This document shows positions 445-21,052 of a DNA stretch of 21,052 nt, piece by piece. The translations under genes and the position numbers were made by a program. The stretch covers positions 1-21,052 of IMG/VR virus record IMGVR_UViG_3300007775_000027; one strand, 5' to 3'. Source of the stretch: a virus. The number at the start of each line of letters is the position of its first letter. The first letter of the stretch is position 1. The notes below the pieces were generated by a model. That model had not been told where the DNA came from, made no database searches, and worked only from the letters and a program-made list of their open reading frames with translations.

Positions 445-1063
445 GGAACGTGATATTGTTAGAGCCAGCCGAGCCGGACTCATCCTTAAATGACACAAGC
501 TGTGTCGGCTTGATGTCTTTCGGCAGCGTGACTGTCACTGCCCCGGCATAGTCAACTCCGAATATGTTCAGGCCATCTATGAGCTGGCTCCTGGTGATCT
601 GGTACTCAGCCTGCTGGATCTTGGTGTACTGGACAAACTGACCACCTCCGCCGCCACCAGGTGCATGTCCCTTCGGACCTGTAAGGTCTGTACCTTCTCC
701 CCACGTACCATTGGGCTTTTCAAAGTACAGCTTGTTCCCTACCCATTTGTGATCAGGGATGCGCCCATCTTCGCCAGCCGGCCCTTCTGGGCCTGTATCC
801 CCAGGTTTGCCAGGCGCTCCTGAGAGGCCCTGTGGCCCACGATCTCCCTTCGGGCCTGGCGGTCCCATAGGGCCGGGCTCTCCCTGCGGCCCCGGATCGC
901 CCTGCGGCCCCGCAGGCCCCATCGGACCTCGCTCTCCCTGTAGCCCTGGCATTCCCTGAGCGCCGGATTGCCCATCCTTGCCCCGGAATATCTTCACCTC
1001 ATTCGGCATCTTCTGAAGAGGGGCGAGAGGGGCCAGCTTACTTAACGACTGTGGCTTTGCCAT
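440..1063 (-). CDS. Collagen-like tail-fibre protein, 207 aa
   Basis: The start is ATG at 1063 with a strong SD (GAGGTG) 5 nt before it, inside the last 26 nt of the preceding gene; the stop is TAG. Residues 1-27 form a short Pro/Leu/Lys leader. Residues 28-99 are 24 uninterrupted Gly-X-Y triplets with frequent GPM, GPQ, GEP, GDR and GPK units, expected to form a collagen-type triple helix. Residues ~100-140 hold a W-containing linker ([10 protein letters not shown]...GTWGEG) and a Gly6 hinge. The rest is a small beta domain with AVTVTLPK and FKDESG motifs that occur in phage fibre tips. Collagen-like segments are known from phage tail-fibre and spike proteins as rigid trimeric rods. Here it would be a fibre or a trimeric appendage. 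The tip domain ends abruptly after NNITFQ, so it may be short. Attachment site and receptor are unknown. Confidence 0.8.
767..982 (-). repeat. Gly-X-Y collagen repeat coding tract (24 triplets)
   Basis: These 216 nt encode 24 consecutive Gly-X-Y triplets without interruption. The repeat is at protein level: codons are varied enough that it is not a simple DNA tandem repeat, but the 9-nt periodicity of GGN-CCN-NNN is obvious. It also creates Gly/Pro-rich open frames on the other strand and in another frame that are artefacts. Such tracts can change length by slippage or recombination between related phages. Confidence 0.85.
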
Positions 1064-7278: not shown

Positions 7279-7723
7279 TGCTGTCACCTGTATTGTCGCT
7301 GCCGAACACACTAGCAAAAGAAGGTTTGATGCCCACTTGTGCTGGCAGCCCTGCGACAGCCTGTGCGATGTTACCTCGTGTCACAGCCCTATTGGCTGAA
7401 CTCTGGAGTACACCTGCCCGTAAGGCAGCCGCCTCCTGCCCATAACTAAAGCCCACAGCTTCCGCTGTCTGGGAGAATATAGACCCGGCTGCACCCTGCA
7501 CTGCCGAAGACTGCGAGGCCCCCTTAGATGCAGCCTCAGCCCGCAGCGATGCCCGCTGCTGGTTGGCTTGGGCCACTGCCCTACGCCGTGCCCGAGCATC
7601 GGCGAGTTGCTGCCTGCGGCGCTCTATGCGAGCCGCCTTCTGCTGATCCCGACTGGCTACTCGCTGCTCGTGGATGTTGTATACTGTCCCTACGGCAGTT
7701 ACTACTGCTGCTGCTGTAGCCAT
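7271..7723 (-). CDS. Small internal virion protein, 150 aa (gp14-like)
   Basis: The gene starts at ATG 7723 in a TAATG junction with the preceding gene, with a GAGGTAGGTGA ribosome site upstream. It stops at TGA 7273-7271, inside the start region of the 1445-aa gene. The N-terminus (residues 1-16, MATAAAVVTAVGTVYN) is small-residue and hydrophobic. It is followed by an Arg/Gln/Ala-rich helix at ~22-65 (RIERRRQQLADARARRR) and an Ala/Gly/Ser-rich tail. This pattern of a short hydrophobic N-terminus plus a long charged helix, and the place straight after the nozzle and GNAT-like genes, match gp14-type ejection proteins of T7-like phages. Those leave the virion first and enter the outer membrane. 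T7 gp14 is 196 aa, so this one is shorter. Function is inferred from architecture and synteny. Confidence 0.7.
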   Translation of the reverse strand: MATAAAVVTAVGTVYNIHEQRVASRDQQKAARIERRRQQLADARARRRAVAQANQQRASLRAEAASKGASQSSAVQGAAGSIFSQTAEAVGFSYGQEAAALRAGVLQSSANRAVTRGNIAQAVAGLPAQVGIKPSFASVFGSDNTGDSNA

Positions 7724-8193
7724 TATTCACCTACCTCAGTTAAGTCAATTGCGTGAACGGTTTCGACCTGCTTATAGCCAGCCGCCTGCGCTGTCTTGTC
7801 CCACCGATGCGACTCCATCATGGTTATCATGTGAGTCCTTGCACCGACCTCTTTCAGATATAGTTGCACTACTTTTAGGATCTCAACTGGAACATGGGTC
7901 TTCCTGTAGGCCGGGTGCACATAGAAGGCATCGTTGACAGCGTACTTTGTCCCCTTGTGGTGGATGTGGTCATGCACGAAGTCTATGCAATATCCAATCA
8001 GCGTATTGTCGCTGTTATACACCAGTATAGTTGAGAGGTTGCCGGCATCGTCCATCCTATTGTAGGCATCCCAGTCAATGTTAAGATTGATCTCATCGCG
8101 ACTGTACCCGACTTCCATCCAGTGTTGATACAGCAGCTCGTGGAATGCTGGGGGTACTTCTCGGAACTTGGCAGAGATAACATTGATAGCCAT
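7723..8193 (-). CDS. GNAT-like (acetyltransferase-fold) phage protein, 156 aa
   Basis: The ATG at 8193 is in a TAATG overlap with the nozzle stop, and the gene ends in another TAATG overlap, so it is tightly coupled to both neighbours. The layout fits a GNAT fold: beta strands around ILVYNSDNTLIGYCIDFV (~56-73), the core strand NDAFYVHPAYRK (87-98), a helix at ~101-115, THMITMM (~120-126), and the C-terminal W-K-A--AGYK--ET motif (~131-145). The usual pyrophosphate-binding loop R/Q-x-x-G-x-G/A is replaced by R97-K-T-H-V-P, without glycines, so acetyl-CoA binding is doubtful. T7 gene 13 sits at the same relative place between gp12 and gp14 and is needed for virion assembly; this protein may be its counterpart. 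Enzyme activity is unproven. Confidence 0.65.
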   Translation of the reverse strand: MAINVISAKFREVPPAFHELLYQHWMEVGYSRDEINLNIDWDAYNRMDDAGNLSTILVYNSDNTLIGYCIDFVHDHIHHKGTKYAVNDAFYVHPAYRKTHVPVEILKVVQLYLKEVGARTHMITMMESHRWDKTAQAAGYKQVETVHAIDLTEVGE

Positions 8194-12085: not shown

Positions 12086-12619
12086 TTACGTCTTGTCAGC
12101 CAGGTACTCCGTGAGCGGTGGGATATACGAAACAACAATGACTGCTGTACCAGTCAGTGTGTCCGTACCACCGGCCCACTTAGCATAGATGACGCCATCC
12201 TTATCCCCTGTCTCAGCTCCGATTAGAGCACCGTCACCTTCATCCCAACTCGTAGCGACGAGATTAGCCTTGGCACCGACGCCACCAACTTCGATGAAAC
12301 CATTGAAGTCAATCTCAGTTGAGCCATCGTCCGCCTGTACCAGACCTGCATCAATGCCCGTGGCACTGGATGTAGAAGTAAAGGCATCCTCAACATAGAT
12401 TGCGGCATGACGAATCAGAGAGTTTGCCGGGATCACGTTATACGTGTCATTGGCATCAAACTCTGAAGTCGGCACTAGAGTGGCTGAACTCGCAGTGGTG
12501 TAGATAGGCTGGATCATAGTCCGAACCACATCGCTGTCCGGCAGGACAACTGCTGTATCTACCTCACTTGTACGAGGGCCAAAGATATTGCGAGAACCGC
12601 TGATAATTGTCTTATTCAT
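12086..12619 (-). CDS. Probable head decoration / small capsid-associated protein, 177 aa
   Basis: The ATG at 12619 lies 14 nt after the capsid stop. AGGGAG about 9 nt upstream overlaps that stop, and the frame ends at TAA 12088-12086. The sequence is beta-rich with few Lys/Arg and many Thr, Ala and Asp. It has an IPANSLIRHAAIYVEDAF motif (~62-79) and a C-terminal strand pair ending in TAVIVVSYIPPLTEYL (~157-172). Proteins of this size and composition placed directly after the major capsid gene in podoviruses are often capsid decoration or head-surface proteins. No catalytic motif is seen. The upstream frame has a TGA just before the ATG, so it cannot be made as a frameshift extension of the capsid protein. 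The decoration role is inferred from position and composition. Confidence 0.65.
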   Translation of the reverse strand: MNKTIISGSRNIFGPRTSEVDTAVVLPDSDVVRTMIQPIYTTASSATLVPTSEFDANDTYNVIPANSLIRHAAIYVEDAFTSTSSATGIDAGLVQADDGSTEIDFNGFIEVGGVGAKANLVATSWDEGDGALIGAETGDKDGVIYAKWAGGTDTLTGTAVIVVSYIPPLTEYLADKT

Positions 12620-12633
12620 ATCTCAGTTCTCCC

Positions 12634-13617
12634 TTAGTAGTTGGTACGTGAAGTCAAGCAAACAACCACAGTCTGTAGTCGCTGCAAACCGAAACCCCAA
12701 CGAGCTGCCATGTAGAACTCGTCACGACGGCGAGGCGCGTTACGATAGCCTTCAAACTCAGGCATCTGACGCCATGCGCCCATGATCGGAGTTTCCATGT
12801 CATCGCTAACACACATGAACAGGTTGGCGACACCAGATGTAACAGACGCAGAGCTGGACGGAGCCGGCACTGTGATGGTGGAGGTGTCAACCGTTTCGCT
12901 GTTCACTTCATGCAGACGGTTCGACAGGTAAACGTCGAAGCCATAGATATTCCGCAGGAAGCGCATGTTCTTGGCGAAGCCCGTGTTGATGATACCTTCA
13001 ACCTGCGGGTTGTTGCTTACGTTGACCAGATTCGAGATCCGGTTCAGCGAGGCTTCCGCCAGCGGGTCAAAGATTGCAATACGGCCATCATCCGGCGCAT
13101 TGGCCTTATCCAAGGCGAGCTTGGCATAGATGAAGTCCTCAACGTCGATGACCTGGCTAGTACCAGATGCCACGAAACGGTGAGCGTAGCCGTTGATTGC
13201 GTTCGGATTAGAAGCAGTCTGACCGTTTGGAGCGGCCGCCAGCATGTCAGTTTCCCACCGCTCCTTCAGAGCGCGGAGCTGCTTCGGAGTAATGGCTGCA
13301 TCGAACTGCTGGACCTTCCAACTGTCCTGCTTGACCTTATCAGTCAGATAGACACCAGAACCTACATACTCGGTGATGGTTAGTGTGATCTCGCCGCTAT
13401 CGAATGGGTCGATAGGAGTCGGCTTGTCTTCGTCCAGATCACGGAGCACCAGATCACCAAACGTAGTGATATGCAGAGTGTCGCCGTCCTGGAAGTCAGT
13501 TACATCGCGGTGAATACCTTCAGGAAGAAAGTCATCCTTCAGGGTATCCAACGTAAGCTGCGAGTAGACTTCCGCACGGCGCAACGCTGAGGTGTTGTCA
13601 GTAGTATTACCTACCAT
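12634..13617 (-). CDS. Major capsid protein (HK97-like fold expected), 327 aa
   Basis: ATG at 13617 has AAGGGG 7-8 nt upstream, 25 nt after the scaffold stop; the stop is TAA 12636-12634. An N-terminal helix (ALRRAEVYSQLTLDTLKDDF, 11-30) and an E-loop-like beta region (GDTLHITTFGDLVLRDLDED) come first, then helical and beta P- and A-domain segments. IAIFDPLAEASLNRI (~180-194) is the typical 'make a subunit, read the coat' stretch, and the C-terminus carries RRRDEFYMAARWGFGLQR. Length is close to T7 gp10A (345 aa). The order scaffold, capsid, decoration, adaptor is the podovirus head order. About 415 or more copies per T=7 head would be needed, so this should be the most expressed gene of the block, consistent with a strong ribosome site and a terminator-like hairpin downstream. 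Confidence 0.88.
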   Translation of the reverse strand: MVGNTTDNTSALRRAEVYSQLTLDTLKDDFLPEGIHRDVTDFQDGDTLHITTFGDLVLRDLDEDKPTPIDPFDSGEITLTITEYVGSGVYLTDKVKQDSWKVQQFDAAITPKQLRALKERWETDMLAAAPNGQTASNPNAINGYAHRFVASGTSQVIDVEDFIYAKLALDKANAPDDGRIAIFDPLAEASLNRISNLVNVSNNPQVEGIINTGFAKNMRFLRNIYGFDVYLSNRLHEVNSETVDTSTITVPAPSSSASVTSGVANLFMCVSDDMETPIMGAWRQMPEFEGYRNAPRRRDEFYMAARWGFGLQRLQTVVVCLTSRTNY

Positions 13618-13642: not shown

Positions 13643-14386
13643 TTAGACTCCGGCCTGTTTCATCAGACCAGATGTGTAAGCGATACGATCTTTCTCACGC
13701 ATCTTGGTGATGTTCTTCGGCCTTTCGTCTTCGTTGCTTTGCTGATTAAATGCAGCGGTATTAACGCTGCTGGAGCTAGGCTGATGAGACTGCTTCCTCC
13801 CTTCTGTTAAGAAGAGGTGAGCGAATGCTTCGGGACTGTCTTTCCCGAGTGCATCAATCTGATTCCCAGTCATACCTAATTCCTTACCCTTGGCAGTGAC
13901 GGTGGTGACATAGTCATCACCATACAGCTCCTTGGCCTTGGCTTCACACCGTGAGAGGTTGGCATTCTGCTGCGCTGCGGTTTGCCGGTTCTCGATGGTG
14001 CCCAGTGCTAGGTCTGCTGCCTGCTTGACGAGTTCTTCGTTACTCAGGCCAGTGGTGTTCTGGTCATTTCCTGAAGTGCTCTGCCGCGCTCCTTGCGTGT
14101 TGGCGTCCACAATCGCTTGCAGGCGTTCATTCTCTGCCTTCAGTTCCGAGCTCTCAGTTTTCAGCGTAGAGTTCTCAGACTCCAGATTAGAGATGTGATC
14201 CTGTGCGTGGCTGATATTCTTTACCACATCGTCACGAGTATGGAATGCACGTTCACCTACAGTCAAGAAGACATTCTCCCCGGTCGGAGTACTGTTCTGA
14301 TTGTTGGTGGGTTCCTGATGACCGCTCTGTTGTCCAGACTGGTCGTTGTTGCCAGGGTTGCTGGCGCTTGAATTGTCAAATGACAT
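13643..14386 (-). CDS. Capsid assembly scaffolding protein, 247 aa
   Basis: ATG at 14386 is preceded by AGGGG at 7 nt, overlapping the stop of the small basic gene. Residues 1-35 are an Asn/Gln/Ser/Gly-rich disordered leader. FLTVGERAFHTRDDVVKNI (~40-58) is a small folded motif seen in podovirus scaffolds. Residues ~60-95 form a clear coiled coil (ISNLESENSTLKTESSELKA, Leu heptads). A Gln/Asn-rich linker leads to a second helical domain (LYGDDYVTTVTAKGKELG). The C-terminus is a basic helix (MREKDRIAYTSGLMKQAGV), the usual capsid-binding end of scaffolds. It should form the transient core of the procapsid and guide capsid closure with the portal, then leave. Length is near T7 gp9 (307 aa). It lies directly before the capsid gene, as in T7. 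Confidence 0.85.
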   Translation of the reverse strand: MSFDNSSASNPGNNDQSGQQSGHQEPTNNQNSTPTGENVFLTVGERAFHTRDDVVKNISHAQDHISNLESENSTLKTESSELKAENERLQAIVDANTQGARQSTSGNDQNTTGLSNEELVKQAADLALGTIENRQTAAQQNANLSRCEAKAKELYGDDYVTTVTAKGKELGMTGNQIDALGKDSPEAFAHLFLTEGRKQSHQPSSSSVNTAAFNQQSNEDERPKNITKMREKDRIAYTSGLMKQAGV

Positions 14387-14395
14387 AATAATCCC

Positions 14396-14587
14396 CTAGA
14401 GGTTGTCGAGAGTTTTGCGGTGACGCTTGATTGCCTTGGCTGCGCCTCGCGCTGTGCCAGTGCCCAGTAGCTTCTCTAACCAGCTACCGCTGTCACTGGA
14501 CTTCTTCTTCTTCTGAATTGGGGGGTGCGAGCTTTTGGTCTTGTCCTTCCCCTTCTTCGGAATCTTCTTGTCTGATTGCTTGGCCAT
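14396..14587 (-). CDS. Small Lys-rich basic protein, 63 aa, overlapping the previous gene
   Basis: I start this at ATG 14587, which has TTGGAG 9 nt upstream, rather than the in-frame TTG at 14602. It ends at TAG 14398-14396. The first half is extremely basic (SDKKIPKKGKDKTKSS, then QKKKK). The second half has a short amphipathic helix (SWLEKLLG) and another basic stretch (AAKAIKRHRKTLDNL). The first 95 nt overlap the end of the 135-aa gene in another frame. Where that gene encodes four Glu, this one encodes four Lys from the same GAA/AAG run. A small basic protein between portal and scaffold could bind DNA, the acidic neighbour or the scaffold, but I do not recognise it. It could also be a spurious frame; the good ribosome site and continuation to the scaffold start argue that it is real. 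Confidence 0.6.
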   Translation of the reverse strand: MAKQSDKKIPKKGKDKTKSSHPPIQKKKKSSDSGSWLEKLLGTGTARGAAKAIKRHRKTLDNL

Positions 14588-14900
14588 AAATGTCCACTCC
14601 AAATAAATCTTTCAGTATCCTACGTATTGTCCGGCGAGTTGCATTGCAGTCAGCCTGGAACTCTGAGAAGGCCGGCAGCTTGTAGGACTCCGCTGATTCA
14701 GCCTTCTGCTCAGTGTTACGGTACTCAGTCATTAGGACTTTGATGGCCGCCAGCCGAACCAAATCAGCCTCTGTAAACTGAGCCACCAACGAGTCAAGAT
14801 CTTCCTCTGGGACAGCTCGCTGAAGCCTCAGCGGCACACCTGGCTTGGCCGGCCTGCGGGCTGTCCGCTTGATGAATCGTTTACGCTGCTGTGCCGACAT
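14493..14900 (-). CDS. Small phage protein with basic N-terminus and acidic tail, 135 aa
   Basis: The start ATG at 14900 is chosen over an ATG at 14921 because GGAGG lies 6 nt upstream of it. It overlaps the portal end by 20 nt and stops at TGA 14495-14493. The N-terminus is very basic (RKRFIKRTARRPAKPG, residues 6-21). The middle is helical (DLDSLVAQFTEADLVRLAAI, then FQADCNATRRTIRRILKDLF). The C-terminus is acidic (EDSEEGEG, then EEEEVQ). No known family is recognised. T7 has a small gene (7.3) before the portal and host-range genes nearby, but nothing equivalent after it. Possible roles include portal or scaffold assembly and head-tail completion; these are guesses from place. Confidence 0.65.
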   Translation of the reverse strand: MSAQQRKRFIKRTARRPAKPGVPLRLQRAVPEEDLDSLVAQFTEADLVRLAAIKVLMTEYRNTEQKAESAESYKLPAFSEFQADCNATRRTIRRILKDLFGVDIYGQAIRQEDSEEGEGQDQKLAPPNSEEEEVQ

Positions 14901-16674
14901 CCTGAACCTCCGGGCTATCATTCAGATTGACTGCATTCTCCTGTGTCAGCGTGTCCTGTGCCGTCTGCTGTCGCCTTGCCATCTCCAACTGCTCAGGGAT
15001 ACGGCCATACGGCTGAACCAACTGGTATTCTTCAAACTCCATGATCTCTTCCCACAGTCGTGCCAAACGCACAGATGGGAAGTGCTGCAACAGTTCCTTG
15101 TCCACATTGAGAACTTGGGACTCCAAAGTCATCAGGTTCTGGGTAAGCTGCTGTTTGCGAGCGTAGTGGCTGGCACCCTTCGGTATCAGCTTACCATTCG
15201 CTGTCAGATCTTCTTTTCCGATCTGCTTGAACAGCTTGGCCCCTGTCTCCTTGTCGGCCACCCTGATAGTCTCTTTCCGACTGGCAAGATAGCGTCGGGA
15301 CAGGTACACCTCCGCATTGATAATGTCCACCAAGAAGTTTTTCTCGAACTCGTTCATGTTGTGCTGGAAGAATCGCTGGCTGGCGTTCTCAAGCCGCTGT
15401 ACTTCAAACTTAGTCTTTTCGCCTGGTGTCCTGAAACCAACAGCTTCACGCGGGGCACCTGCATACTCGTCCATCTTGCGCTCGGTCTCTTCGATCTTGA
15501 AGTCGGCATTGAGCACTGTTGGATCAGGTGCCAAGTTCTTCACATCTCCGCCGTTGGCGATGTAATAAGTGACTTCACCTTTGTCCCCCGTGATCTCTTC
15601 ATCCACATCGCCTGTGATAACACGATCAGGAATCAGCATATCATCAAAAGCGTCAGCCTTAGCGTTCTCAAGGTGGTTGATGTAGTACTGCATACCTAAC
15701 AAGTTCTCCAGCGCCCCCATGCCCCACAGGTTATTCTTGCGCTGGCGGTAGCTGGCATGAAAGATCAACGGTTGCCCGTTCCACGTATCTACTGACTCAT
15801 TGCGGATCACATACCGGCGATCCACTACAGTCACGCACCGATTCTTATACAACACTTGATTGTCGAGATCGTAGATGTCGCCATAGAAGTCCAGAAACTC
15901 GACGAACTCGCCTATGATGTACTGAGCGAATGAGCCGAACCCATCAAGGCTTGCCTGCTCTGTCTTCCGAATGTCCTCTGTCTTCATCCCCCGAGCGTGA
16001 CTGCGGATCTTCATAATCTTGTCCCACACATCTCGCTGGTAGTTTAGATCAGGGCGCTCTTCGATATCCCGAGCCGCCTCACCTATAGTTTTAACTGACC
16101 GTATGATCTTCGGGGTGTGCTCCCAGTCAATAGCGAATGGGTTAAACACGATATCTTTCGGAGCAATCCGTTGGATGCGGGGACCAACATAGCCCTGCAC
16201 CAGTTCATCGTCTGGCATCTGATGCTGCTCATTCACATAGACCACTTGAGCAAAGCAGTCCCCGTCTATCCAGTCATCAACCAATTCTGTAACTTTGATG
16301 TCAAATTTGCTCATCCGATGTTTGGTGCGTAAGTACGCCTCGATGCCCTCCCTGACTTTCGATGTGACACTCTTCTCATCCTCGCCCTCGAACTCAAACC
16401 AATGGTCGTTCGGCATTAACCCTTGGACATAATTGGCCTTAAGGTTATCATATAGCTGCATGAGCTTGGGCCGATGAGTAGTGTGGTTGTGCCCATTGCT
16501 GTCATTCTCGGTGGTCTCAGTAGATGTGGCGTACTTGTACTGATTGACTTCATCAACGATCTGTTCACGCTGGATCTTAGCGTCTTTCCACTGGTCCCAG
16601 AAGCTAGATATAGTAGTTGCCATCTGGTCGGGGTTGCCGATAATCTCTTCAAATAGGTCGAGCGATTGATTCAT
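14881..16674 (-). CDS. Portal protein (head-tail connector), 597 aa
   Basis: ATG at 16674 follows the terminase TAA with no gap (TAAATG), and GGAGA lies 7 nt upstream; the stop is TAA 14883-14881. The N-terminal helices carry FWDQWKDAKIQREQIVDEVN (~25-44), then RPKLMQLYDNLKANYVQGLM (~68-87), a motif typical of podovirus portals. The wing region (IQRIAPKDIVFNPFA...) and the stretch YRQRKNNLWGMGALENLLGM (~311-330) with NHLENAKADAFDDML follow. The clip/crown part has TPGEKTKFEVQRLENASQRF. The C-terminal barrel is helical and Gln-rich (QLEMARRQQTAQDTLTQ). Length is in the range of T7 gp8 (536 aa). The protein should form the dodecameric ring through which terminase pumps DNA and onto which adaptor and internal core dock. 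Confidence 0.88.
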   Translation of the reverse strand: MNQSLDLFEEIIGNPDQMATTISSFWDQWKDAKIQREQIVDEVNQYKYATSTETTENDSNGHNHTTHRPKLMQLYDNLKANYVQGLMPNDHWFEFEGEDEKSVTSKVREGIEAYLRTKHRMSKFDIKVTELVDDWIDGDCFAQVVYVNEQHQMPDDELVQGYVGPRIQRIAPKDIVFNPFAIDWEHTPKIIRSVKTIGEAARDIEERPDLNYQRDVWDKIMKIRSHARGMKTEDIRKTEQASLDGFGSFAQYIIGEFVEFLDFYGDIYDLDNQVLYKNRCVTVVDRRYVIRNESVDTWNGQPLIFHASYRQRKNNLWGMGALENLLGMQYYINHLENAKADAFDDMLIPDRVITGDVDEEITGDKGEVTYYIANGGDVKNLAPDPTVLNADFKIEETERKMDEYAGAPREAVGFRTPGEKTKFEVQRLENASQRFFQHNMNEFEKNFLVDIINAEVYLSRRYLASRKETIRVADKETGAKLFKQIGKEDLTANGKLIPKGASHYARKQQLTQNLMTLESQVLNVDKELLQHFPSVRLARLWEEIMEFEEYQLVQPYGRIPEQLEMARRQQTAQDTLTQENAVNLNDSPEVQDVGTAA

Positions 16675-18291
16675 TTATCTTCTCCGTCCACCGAATCTGG
16701 ATGCGATTCGTGACTCAGTACCCGTCACTTCTGACTGGCCCTGGCCTCTACGCAGGCCTATGTGGTTTGTGCTCACTGTTGGTTTCTTGGCATTCTTGAC
16801 TGCGGTGCACACCGCATCCTTCAAGTCATCATTCTTTGACCGCATCTCTTTGAGCTGCTTTTCTAGGTCCGCCATCCACCCGCCCTTGTAGTGTTTGATG
16901 GTGCCGGCTGCATAGACTGGCTCCAGTATCATCATGTGTCGCTCTTCTTTCGACATGTTGCGCGGGACAGCCTTGGCCTTTACTGTGAGATGCAAGCCGT
17001 CATTGCGTACATACTCTGTCATCTGGTCGGCGATAAGCTTACCTGCACCGTCGGATTCAATATGGATGTGCTTGAAGCGCCACATATCGTAGAGCTTGGA
17101 GATGTGTCGGTAGTAAACGCTGTACTTGTCTGTCTGGAACTGCACTAGGTCCAGCAGGTAGATAAAGCCCTCGTCGTCAATGCCTATGACAGCGATAGCC
17201 GTATAGTCGGCCTTCTTGGCTGACTTCGCCTTGGCATCGGTCCAGGCCAGGTCCATGCCCGCAACCACGTTCAACTTCTTGTCTCCGTAGTACCAGATGC
17301 TCCCTACTCGGGTAAGGAACTTGCGGTTGTAATATTGGAACTCACTGGTCATCACATCCGGGTTGTGATTCGTGTTGTTGTAATACTGGGCAAAGAACTG
17401 TACCAGCTTACCAACGGACACGTACTCGGCCTTCTTCTTAGCCAGCTCCTTGACATCAAACCCGTACCACTCTCCGGTCTCAGGCGCTCTCGTGCGCGGC
17501 CACAGGAACTCACCCAGGCCATCGCCCTTGGTCTCTACCTCCCGCTTCATCACAGTCCACTGCGGTACAGCGCCTGTCTGCTCCCCTGTCTCCGGATCGA
17601 TTGTCGGTAGCTCAGCTTCCATAAACTGATGCCACACATCCTTCTCGTGGTATAGTGTGCCTACGGCACGAGTGACAGCCCCGGTATTCTTAATGGCGAT
17701 GAAGTCAGCCACTGAGTCCTCTACATCTTTGCGGCCGGCGTCCGTGTATGCATTTGTCTGCACCACGATGTCATCAAGCAGCAGAACATCACAGTGAAGG
17801 CCCGTCGCACTGGAGCCTACCGTCTTGATGATCAGCGTGTAGTCGCGGATACGACGCTTCTTGCGCTCTGGGTGGTCCGTGTTAATAGCCCAAGTTGCCC
17901 ACTTGTCTCTCATCGACTTCCGCTTGTGGAACATCTCAGGCCACAGGAGTCGGTATTCATCGCTTTCCAGCATTTGCTTTATAGCTGAAATCTGCAACTT
18001 GGCTAAATCATCGCCGGCTGTTAGATATACCATCGTAATCCAAGGCTTCTTGGTGATCATCCACGCAGCATAGCAGGCTAGAATATGGCTCTTCAGATGA
18101 CCACGTGGCAGCAGCATGAGGAAGTGTTCGTTATCGCCATTCTCCAGGGCCAGAGCCGCCTCCTGGTGGATATCCCCGTAGACATAGCCAGGGTTCACAT
18201 ACTGCATGAACCGAAAGAGTGAGCCTTCGTAATAAGCCCGCAGTTCCTTCTCTTTCTGGGTCAGCGTCGGGAGCTTAGTTGGTTCCGCCAT
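16675..18291 (-). CDS. terL: Terminase large subunit (packaging ATPase and nuclease), 538 aa
   Basis: I start at ATG 18291, 8 nt after AAGG, rather than the adjacent GTG at 18294; it overlaps the small-subunit gene by 17 nt. The N-terminal ATPase has the Walker A-like LLPRGHLKS at residues ~60-68 and Walker B CDVLLLDDI at ~167-175, with a coupling GTLYHEKD at ~211-218. The C-terminal RNase H-like nuclease shows its acidic residues in AGMDLAW (D347), HIESDGAGK (E412/D414) and NDDLKDAV (D489/D492). The C-terminus is basic (RIASRFGGRRR), as in many podovirus terminases. It cuts concatemers and drives DNA into the procapsid through the portal, which is encoded immediately downstream. Length fits T7 gp19-type and related enzymes (about 530-590 aa). 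Confidence 0.93.
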   Translation of the reverse strand: MAEPTKLPTLTQKEKELRAYYEGSLFRFMQYVNPGYVYGDIHQEAALALENGDNEHFLMLLPRGHLKSHILACYAAWMITKKPWITMVYLTAGDDLAKLQISAIKQMLESDEYRLLWPEMFHKRKSMRDKWATWAINTDHPERKKRRIRDYTLIIKTVGSSATGLHCDVLLLDDIVVQTNAYTDAGRKDVEDSVADFIAIKNTGAVTRAVGTLYHEKDVWHQFMEAELPTIDPETGEQTGAVPQWTVMKREVETKGDGLGEFLWPRTRAPETGEWYGFDVKELAKKKAEYVSVGKLVQFFAQYYNNTNHNPDVMTSEFQYYNRKFLTRVGSIWYYGDKKLNVVAGMDLAWTDAKAKSAKKADYTAIAVIGIDDEGFIYLLDLVQFQTDKYSVYYRHISKLYDMWRFKHIHIESDGAGKLIADQMTEYVRNDGLHLTVKAKAVPRNMSKEERHMMILEPVYAAGTIKHYKGGWMADLEKQLKEMRSKNDDLKDAVCTAVKNAKKPTVSTNHIGLRRGQGQSEVTGTESRIASRFGGRRR

Positions 18292-18853
18292 CACTCATGC
18301 CTTCGTGCAGTTTCTCAATGGCCGCTTGACGATCAGCCTCGTCTTGGGCATCTTCCTTTTCCTGTGCATCCGCCTTAGCGTTTGGACGGCCAACAGGACG
18401 CTTTGCTAACCGACTGTTGATATCTAGCAATAATCTGGCAGCGCCTGTGTCGCCTTTCTTGGCGCTTGCCATAATTCCTCTCTTAGCGTAACTAGCGTCC
18501 CTATCGGCCATATCCTCCCGCCACTGCTCCAGCCCTTCATAGCCTTTGCTTTTGTCTCCCTCTACGAACCATTTGCAGTTGCACAATCTGCGCCAGTGCT
18601 TCATTGAGCCGACCAGCCTCATGGCTGCATCGTACTCGTCAACACTATTCATGTACACATGGTAGGCACTGATCAGCCCTTCCGACAGTCTGTCCTTGTC
18701 AGACAGATTATACATCGGTGTATACCGCTTCTTGCTTGACGGCTGAATGGCTTCGACAAACAAGCTCTGAGTGCGAAGTGTGCCACGACTGTCAAGCAGG
18801 AGAGTCGGGTCTGCATTGTCGTGGGCGAACCCTTCGTACTTAGTATAGTCCAT
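18275..18853 (-). CDS. terS: Probable terminase small subunit, 192 aa
   Basis: ATG at 18853 is inside a small hairpin; AAGG lies about 9 nt upstream and is weak. The stop TAA (18277-18275) is inside the large-subunit gene, so the two are coupled. The N-terminal half has TPMYNLSDKDRLSEGLISAY (~45-64) and MRLVGSMKHWRRLCNCKWF (~78-96). The middle has YAKRGIMASAKKGDTGAARL (~122-141), a helix-turn-helix-like and oligomerisation stretch typical of phage small terminases, then LAKRPVGRPNAKA and a charged coiled coil (EKEDAQDEADRQAAIEKLHE). The protein should recognise phage DNA and regulate the large subunit. The call rests on place plus this helical, charged pattern. Two close cysteines (CNC, ~92-94) are noted but no zinc site is evident. 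Confidence 0.8.
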   Translation of the reverse strand: MDYTKYEGFAHDNADPTLLLDSRGTLRTQSLFVEAIQPSSKKRYTPMYNLSDKDRLSEGLISAYHVYMNSVDEYDAAMRLVGSMKHWRRLCNCKWFVEGDKSKGYEGLEQWREDMADRDASYAKRGIMASAKKGDTGAARLLLDINSRLAKRPVGRPNAKADAQEKEDAQDEADRQAAIEKLHEGMSDGGTN

Positions 18854-18906: not shown

Positions 18907-18920
18907 CTGTTAATTAACAG
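18907..18920. repeat. 14-bp perfect palindrome over the tailspike stop
   Basis: CTGTTAATTAACAG is fully self-complementary and contains the TAA stop of the tailspike gene (18912-18910). It lies in the 56-nt gap before the small terminase (18854-18909). No T-run follows on the minus strand (GCGGGGATTT follows), so it is a poor terminator. It may be chance, a protein-binding site, or a transcript 3'-end structure. The remainder of the gap shows only a weak promoter-like arrangement (TTGTGT then CATTAT at about 15 nt). Confidence 0.35.
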
Positions 18921-21052
18921 AGCGCGAGACCTCCCTCCACACATCACTACGAACATTTATCAAGGTGATGTTGTCGTTAGTGTCGCCAGTGAAATCTGCC
19001 CCACCAGCAAGGAGTATGCTTCCACCGTTGGCAATGGTTGTATTAGAGTCTATTCTAATATTTATTATTTGTGATGGGTAGGCATCGTCAAAATCAGTGA
19101 TTGATGTAGCTCCAGTATTAGCTGTCTCAAATTGAACAACACCAGTTCTCCTCGTTCTTACCGATGGGGTTGTGTCGCCGTCTGTAAATATCACAAGGTC
19201 AAACTCATCAATATTATTCAGTAATAAACCATCATATTCGTTTCCTTGTACTACATTTTTAGATGTCGTAGTTGTATGACTTAGATTATAATCAAAGGCA
19301 TAAGTAAACCGACTTCCAGCAGTAAACTTATTGTTTCTCAATGAGACACCGTCAGTAGTGCCTGCGGGGAGAAACCTTACCCCTTTCCCGTCTGTGCCAT
19401 CAGCCTTTCCACAATCATTAAATTCATTATTGTCTATAGATAGTTCAGTAATGTCAGTGACTTCTATTACTGGTCTTCCATCACCCCCCGATGCGTAGTG
19501 AAAATAGTTATTGTTAATTTTTATAAAGCTACCTAATAACAGAGATACCGTGGGATTCCCGGATGTGGCCACGGTGTCTAATGAATTGTTCTCATAATAT
19601 AAGTCATAGACCTCATAGTTACTCCCTATTTGAGTTGCCACATTTGTAGTATTGTATATATCATTATCTCTAACATGGATTGTTTTTACCCCATCTATAT
19701 TCATACCTCTAACAGAATCTCTGATCGTATTGTTGATTACATGGATATTATTTGGAGGGGCTGTTTTTGGCGTAGTAGACGCCCCTTGAACTAATGTTAT
19801 GCCCCAGTTAGCAGTTAGATTCTTCATTGTATTATTTGTTATATAGATACCGGAATATGGTTCATCAACGGTGTCTTGAACGTGCGATGAGGAGACGAGG
19901 CTAACAGCTCCTGCTGTTCCTCCTATAGCGTCAAAAATATTACTATTTATGTGTATCTCATTCAGCCTGTCGCTATCATAGTTAGGCTCCATATCTATAG
20001 CCCCAGGCATAGTTGACTTGGTGCAATTTACAAAATAATTATTTTTAATCCACACATTCTCGCCATTTGTTAAAGATATGGCATTTCTGTTCTCATTATT
20101 AACCCCATCAAAAATATTATTCTTTATCCATACATTTTTAGGATGCGGTGTGTTTGCCCCAGTTGGAGCAAAGCCACCAAAATAAATGGCATCCCCTTCA
20201 AAAGCTCTGAAATAACACCACTCAATAACAACATTCTCAGATCCACGGATAATGACTTGAAAATTTGACTCATTAAAAGCCGTTTCAGAGAGACCATTAA
20301 ATTTTAGGTCTGTGATTCGGATATTGTCATACGCAGAACTCCCATCAAATGTACGTAGGATATGAACGCCAGACGATTCTTTTTCCAAAACAGACTCAAA
20401 ACCATCACCAAATATATGTTGTCCGTCCTTTAGTACTATGTCTGCAAGCACATAGGTACCAGCGGGGAAGTATATTCTATTCTCCCCGCTATCAACTGCG
20501 CTCTGTACGGATGTGCTATCATTGGTTACGCCGTCTCCAGTCGCCCCAAACCAGAGCACGTTCACCGCGCCAGGGAACTGCCTAACCCACGCACCGCTCG
20601 CCCCAGTAGTGTCACTGTTCGGAGGGATGTAAATACCATTCTGCGTGTCTGCTGTGACTTCGGCTGAGAGGTCGGATGAATTCCAAACAAATACCCCGTG
20701 GTATCCGTCATTGACAGATGCCCGATAAAGTACTCGTAGCGTCCGTGCGGATGACGGAATACCCAAGCCTTTTGCCGCAGTGATGTCTGACACCACATAG
20801 TCGGTTGACATTGTTTGTGTAGCAGCATAGGCGCTTGTGTCGTCAAGCACTGTGCCCATGAATGCACTCACACCAGATAAGCCTAGTGTAGCAATGGCCG
20901 CAACAACATCATCGATGTACTTCTTAGTCGCGGCATCGGAATTATTTACAGGGGCAGCGAGATTATGAATGTAGTTGCTATTCATATCCAACTGAGCCTG
21001 CATCGCGTTGGTGCCGGTGGTATCGTCACCGTACAGATTCAACAGGCGACTC
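18910..21052 (-). CDS. Tailspike / tail fibre with pectate-lyase-like beta-helix, 5'-partial
   Basis: The frame is open to the right edge (residues SRLLNLYGDD...), so the N-terminus and start lie outside; a TTG at 21042 is only the first permitted start inside. Numbering from 21042, residues ~19-45 contain a fibre motif (NYIHNLAAPVNNSDAATKKY) that is common in phage tail fibres. Residues ~55-158 form a beta domain with VFVWNSSDLSAEV and GAWVRQF. From ~160 comes a right-handed beta-helix of the Pectate_lyase_3 type: WFGATGDGVTNDST, RIYFPAGTYVLAD, GQHIFGDGFESVL, then many coils of the NVWIKNNIFDGV and NIHVINNTIRDS kind. The C-terminal ~100 residues are a separate beta domain. Such spikes are trimeric and bind or cut host surface polysaccharide. 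Catalytic residues cannot be assigned. From about 20450 downwards the DNA is much more AT-rich than its neighbours, suggesting an exchanged receptor-binding module. Confidence 0.85.
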   Translation of the reverse strand, partial: SRLLNLYGDDTTGTNAMQAQLDMNSNYIHNLAAPVNNSDAATKKYIDDVVAAIATLGLSGVSAFMGTVLDDTSAYAATQTMSTDYVVSDITAAKGLGIPSSARTLRVLYRASVNDGYHGVFVWNSSDLSAEVTADTQNGIYIPPNSDTTGASGAWVRQFPGAVNVLWFGATGDGVTNDSTSVQSAVDSGENRIYFPAGTYVLADIVLKDGQHIFGDGFESVLEKESSGVHILRTFDGSSAYDNIRITDLKFNGLSETAFNESNFQVIIRGSENVVIEWCYFRAFEGDAIYFGGFAPTGANTPHPKNVWIKNNIFDGVNNENRNAISLTNGENVWIKNNYFVNCTKSTMPGAIDMEPNYDSDRLNEIHINSNIFDAIGGTAGAVSLVSSSHVQDTVDEPYSGIYITNNTMKNLTANWGITLVQGASTTPKTAPPNNIHVINNTIRDSVRGMNIDGVKTIHVRDNDIYNTTNVATQIGSNYEVYDLYYENNSLDTVATSGNPTVSLLLGSFIKINNNYFHYASGGDGRPVIEVTDITELSIDNNEFNDCGKADGTDGKGVRFLPAGTTDGVSLRNNKFTAGSRFTYAFDYNLSHTTTTSKNVVQGNEYDGLLLNNIDEFDLVIFTDGDTTPSVRTRRTGVVQFETANTGATSITDFDDAYPSQIINIRIDSNTTIANGGSILLAGGADFTGDTNDNITLINVRSDVWREVSRSVN

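Follow-up and report, generated by a model that had tools for sequence, protein, structure and literature searches.

An acidic tail overprinted on a probable lysine-rich gene in the head block of a Zobellviridae-like podovirus

Two small genes overlap between the portal and scaffold genes in the window, i.e. the whole stretch of 21,052 nucleotides analysed here, which forms part of a virus record and carries the head block of a Zobellviridae-like podovirus on the minus strand. The first encodes 135 amino acids and the second 63. The reading favoured here, with fair confidence, is that of a PHROG 8956 hairpin gene with an overprinted disordered tail, overlapping a real small Lys-rich gene whose product would be a probable DNA-contacting accessory protein of the head or tail. 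The family membership of the hairpin core, the boundary between core and tail, the coupling of the two frames by the code, the codon support for the 63-aa frame and its counterpart in a relative were all computed. The opposite charges of the overlapping segments are for the most part a consequence of the genetic code and do not by themselves imply binding between the proteins. For the most part the result is thus ordinary, namely a small overlapping phage head-block gene with an instructive charge artefact.

Gene order and overlapping frames

The order of genes in the window is portal, 135-aa gene, 63-aa gene and scaffold. On the minus strand, the gene for the large terminase subunit (16675-18294) precedes the portal gene (14881-16674; phrog_332, head-tail adaptor, 7.5e-60), to whose product Zobellviridae portals are 38-42% identical. 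The 3′ end of the portal gene shares 20 nt with the start of the 135-aa gene, which runs on the same strand from an ATG at 14900 to a stop at 14493. The 63-aa gene, also on the minus strand, extends from an ATG at 14587 to a stop at 14396, and the scaffold-like gene (13643-14386, minus strand; phrog_7931, 7.4e-20), placed between portal and capsid, starts 9 nt past that stop. The capsid gene occupies 12634-13617 (minus strand) and is directly followed by a gene for 177 aa (12086-12619, minus strand) that matches nothing in Pfam and nothing convincingly in PHROG.

Other genes of the window, all on the minus strand unless stated, include a GNAT acetyltransferase-like gene (7723-8193; PF00583, 3e-4) that adjoins probable internal virion protein genes, a gene at 2-430 that matches podophage GP4 fibre gp80 (PF23140, 9.9e-21), and a pectate-lyase-like gene of 710 aa (18910-21042; PF12708, 5.4e-12), a probable tailspike. 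A collagen-like gene lies at 440-1063 (PF01391, 1.3e-15), and its periodic repeat also opens an antisense ORF of 66 aa (759-959, plus strand).

The layout described in the first-pass annotation is borne out by the sequence. The 135-aa and 63-aa genes overlap by 95 nt on the minus strand (14493-14587), the 63-aa frame being +1 relative to the 135-aa frame, so that the same letters give an acidic tail in the former gene and a Lys-rich N-terminus in the latter. A single run at 14501-14513 (minus strand; GAAGAAGAAGAAG on the coding strand) is readable as four GAA or four AAG codons, i.e. as Glu 130-133 of one protein or Lys 26-29 of the other. Ribosome sites precede both genes, with GGAGG before the 135-aa ATG and GGAGTGG before the 63-aa ATG. 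No strong RNA structure was found at the 63-aa start (z +0.9), and the start sites carry no structure beyond chance.

Also inside the overlap is a C6 run (14520-14525, minus strand), which had been proposed as a site of slippage between the frames. A programmed +1 frameshift at this run would yield a minor fusion of the N-terminal part of the 135-aa protein with the C-terminal part of the 63-aa protein, as suggested by the position of the run and by the +1 register of the downstream frame. However, the downstream gene comes with an ATG and a ribosome site of its own, the equivalent overlap in L010, the nearest relative among the matches listed (portal 60% identical), contains no C6, and other relatives are without such an overlap. 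Slippage is thus unsupported, and the fusion is very improbable.

The 135-aa protein and its family

The core of the 135-aa protein belongs to PHROG 8956. The profile matches residues 33-97 (phrog_8956, E 1.5e-4) and matches the L010 homologue at 6.9e-11, while the equivalently placed genes of 75-85 aa in Zobellviridae isolates give matches down to 1e-39. Residues Y73, Q82 and A83 of the 135-aa protein are conserved in the family alignment. The PHROG 8956-type core spans residues ∼24-104, flanked by a basic extension (residues 1-23) and by an acidic extension (residues 105-135) predicted to be disordered. In the AlphaFold2 model the core is a helical hairpin with pLDDT about 97, and the tail has values of 57-68. 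A fold search with the predicted hairpin against the PDB and viral models gave nothing below E 0.001, and a Pfam search gave no convincing match. Profile matches in the PDB to TAL effectors were rejected, covering only an 18-residue segment in which no stretch passed. The basic extension (14832-14900, minus strand) has charges of +8/-0, and most family members are without one.

The place of the gene is itself regular: among 138 distinct portal-scaffold intervals taken from relatives, where distinct means not letter-identical, 130 contain a PHROG 8956 member, and the commonest layout is portal, a single gene of ∼80 aa and scaffold. This regularity, to which the 135-aa gene conforms, is measured across relatives and is not a curated family criterion. 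The 135-aa protein thus resembles PHROG 8956 in its core match, its position between portal and scaffold and its predicted hairpin, but differs by carrying extensions at both ends, a basic one at the N-terminus and, overprinted with another gene, an acidic one at the C-terminus.

Is the 63-aa gene real?

The 63-aa protein has 19 K/R and 5 D/E residues and a pI of 10.6. A low-confidence model from two sequences predicts a disordered N-terminal half and a helical C-terminal half. Disorder is predicted both for the tail of the 135-aa protein and for the half of the 63-aa protein that lies in the overlap. Searches with the protein against PHROG returned no match at E≤1, and tblastn against phages with the 63-aa proteins of the window and of L010 returned nothing real, with chance-level matches to Listeria phages at E 2.

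The length of the ORF says little. In trials that kept the 135-aa protein but redrew its synonymous codons and shuffled the 106-nt spacer, 8% produced a +1 ORF of 63 aa or longer, so that length alone is weak evidence. Codon usage is more telling. In the overlap, the codon log-likelihood of the 63-aa frame exceeds that of the 135-aa frame by 5.9, a margin reached by 0/119 control windows in which the other frame is the real one; among windows in which a frame of the 63-aa type is real, 10% score as low or lower. In the non-overlapping half, the 63-aa frame is the sole positive one, at +3.5 versus -13.9 and -10.8.

A counterpart exists in L010, where a Lys/Arg-rich gene of 63 aa (L010:6062-6253) occupies the same place, stands in the same +1 relation and ends just before the scaffold gene, overlapping a 111-aa PHROG 8956 gene by 65 nt. 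The best alignment of the two 63-aa proteins is ungapped over the full length, with 17% identity. Its score has P 3.5e-4 against composition-preserving shuffles, and a gapped end-free global alignment has P 0.025, both tests having been picked after the data were seen. BLASTP finds no match between the two proteins. Homology is thus suggested rather than proven. The codon margin in the L010 overlap is small (1.4). Small proteins of the window and of L010 are 17-31% identical, and their scaffold-like proteins 41%.

An unlikely alternative is that the 63-aa ORF is no gene at all, with a short spacer separating the 135-aa gene from the scaffold gene, and with the Lys-rich frame as a by-product of a Glu-rich tail. 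The chance frequency of such ORFs agrees with this, as does the finding that, with the tail given, 76% of re-codings leave the +1 frame open. Yet in both halves the 63-aa frame is the better one by codon usage, L010 has a counterpart of the same length, the same frame relation and ungapped similarity, and the ORF has its own ribosome site and fills what would otherwise be a gap of 106 nt. Taken with the L010 counterpart, codon usage in both halves indicates that the 63-aa gene is probably real. The first-pass proposal of two overlapping genes in a head-assembly block hence holds, both being probably real, whereas its idea that their complementary charge serves as a device is not supported.

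Charge arithmetic in the overlap

The family core ends near residue 104, and the 63-aa ATG falls in codon 105 of the 135-aa gene; the overlap therefore contains the entire acidic tail, which this lineage has added to the family core. Residues 105-135 are not found in other PHROG 8956 members, and L010 has an unrelated tail. The tail carries charges of +2/-10 and the 63-aa protein +19/-5. Each tail codon consists of the last base of one codon of the 63-aa frame and the first two bases of the next, so that wherever the 63-aa frame has NNG and then AAR, the 135-aa frame has GAA (Glu). All tail Glu residues (8/8) are Lys codons of the 63-aa frame that follow a G-ending codon, and the phage uses AAG 237 times versus 86 for AAA. 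This simple rule, by which a Lys codon after G reads as Glu one base earlier, accounts for opposite charges arising from one repeat.

To what extent the code dictates the tail is seen when the codons of the 63-aa protein are redrawn from phage usage and only outcomes with an open tail frame are counted. Such re-codings give 8.4 ± 1.7 acidic tail residues versus 10 observed (P 0.27 for at least as many), and P is 0.10 for the net charge of the tail. Only 3% of the re-codings of the 63-aa gene leave the tail frame open over its 31 codons, so some weak selection may act to keep the tail. The L010 tail, at +5/-3, is slightly basic, and opposite charge is thus not conserved.

These results bear on the view that the overlap yields two segments of opposite charge which form a co-encoded assembly pair, binding one another or the scaffold. 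The charges of tail and 63-aa protein, the adjacency of the genes in the head block and the rarity with which the tail frame is open by chance are in keeping with it. Nevertheless, such a pair is very unlikely, since the charge is mostly explained by the code, the acidic tail is confined to this lineage and the L010 tail has the wrong sign. Even less probable, to the point of being remote, is an electrostatic pair in which selection keeps the tail open and the Lys-rich protein stays bound to the acidic tail until it is displaced by DNA packaging. More generally, acidic/basic overlaps in Lys-rich genes should not be taken for binding pairs unless they are conserved.

Relatives and the portal-scaffold interval

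Among the matches listed, the overlap layout is common to the window and L010 only. Scans with the 135-aa, portal, capsid and 63-aa proteins and with the scaffold pair revealed no relative closer than L010 among the matches listed, the portal scans being run with the window protein alone, together with L010 and from L010, and the capsid scan covering the best 80 of 403; genome contigs scanned for closer relatives likewise yielded nothing. In more distant relatives the interval of the 63-aa gene is wholly absent, rather than present as broken copies of the frame.

Lys-rich mini-ORFs recur, being found in 14 further intervals that are not letter-identical, although several are near-copies of one another. 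Thirteen of the 14 are located upstream of the PHROG 8956 gene; the fourteenth (L152) may instead be a truncated gene of that family. Mini-genes of about 27-87 aa between portal and PHROG 8956 gene are seen in L038, L062, L148, L149, L150, L155, L161, L176, L024, L137, L163 and L164, and from one group to another they seem not to be homologous. Like the 63-aa gene, these mini-genes of other Zobellviridae-like phages are short, Lys-rich and located in the same interval, but they lie on the portal side of the PHROG 8956 gene and have no demonstrable homology to the 63-aa gene. The interval thus combines a small hairpin gene that is all but universal and of unknown function with recurrent Lys-rich mini-genes, and its products are good targets for virion proteomics.

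A possible scenario and comparison with T7 gp7.3

For the direction of evolution, expression and a role on DNA or in the virion, we infer the following. The 135-aa gene is this lineage's version of the helical-hairpin protein of PHROG 8956, near-universal in Zobellviridae-like podoviruses. In the ancestor of the window phage and L010, a small Lys/Arg-rich gene would have come to separate the hairpin gene from the scaffold gene, and the former would read beyond its ancestral end into the Lys-rich gene, one base out of register, to give an unstructured tail. The acidity of this tail follows from the code: where a message is rich in Lys and many of its codons end in G, that frame has to be Glu-rich. 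The 63-aa gene would be initiated independently from its own ribosome site, and its product would most likely be a minor basic accessory protein of the head or of the portal-tail assembly that contacts DNA, in the manner of T7 gp7.3.

T7 gene 7.3 lies upstream of the T7 portal gene, whereas the 63-aa gene lies downstream, one gene away from the portal gene. The likeness of the two proteins described here is one of features, and a distant relationship in sequence could escape detection in a protein so short and of such composition. T7 gp7.3 is a small basic virion protein of the portal-tail channel (PMC11784390). Both proteins are small and positively charged, have a largely unstructured N-terminus (from a low-confidence model for the 63-aa protein) and are encoded near a podovirus portal gene. 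By this analogy, a gp7.3-like role is the most economical guess for the 63-aa protein.
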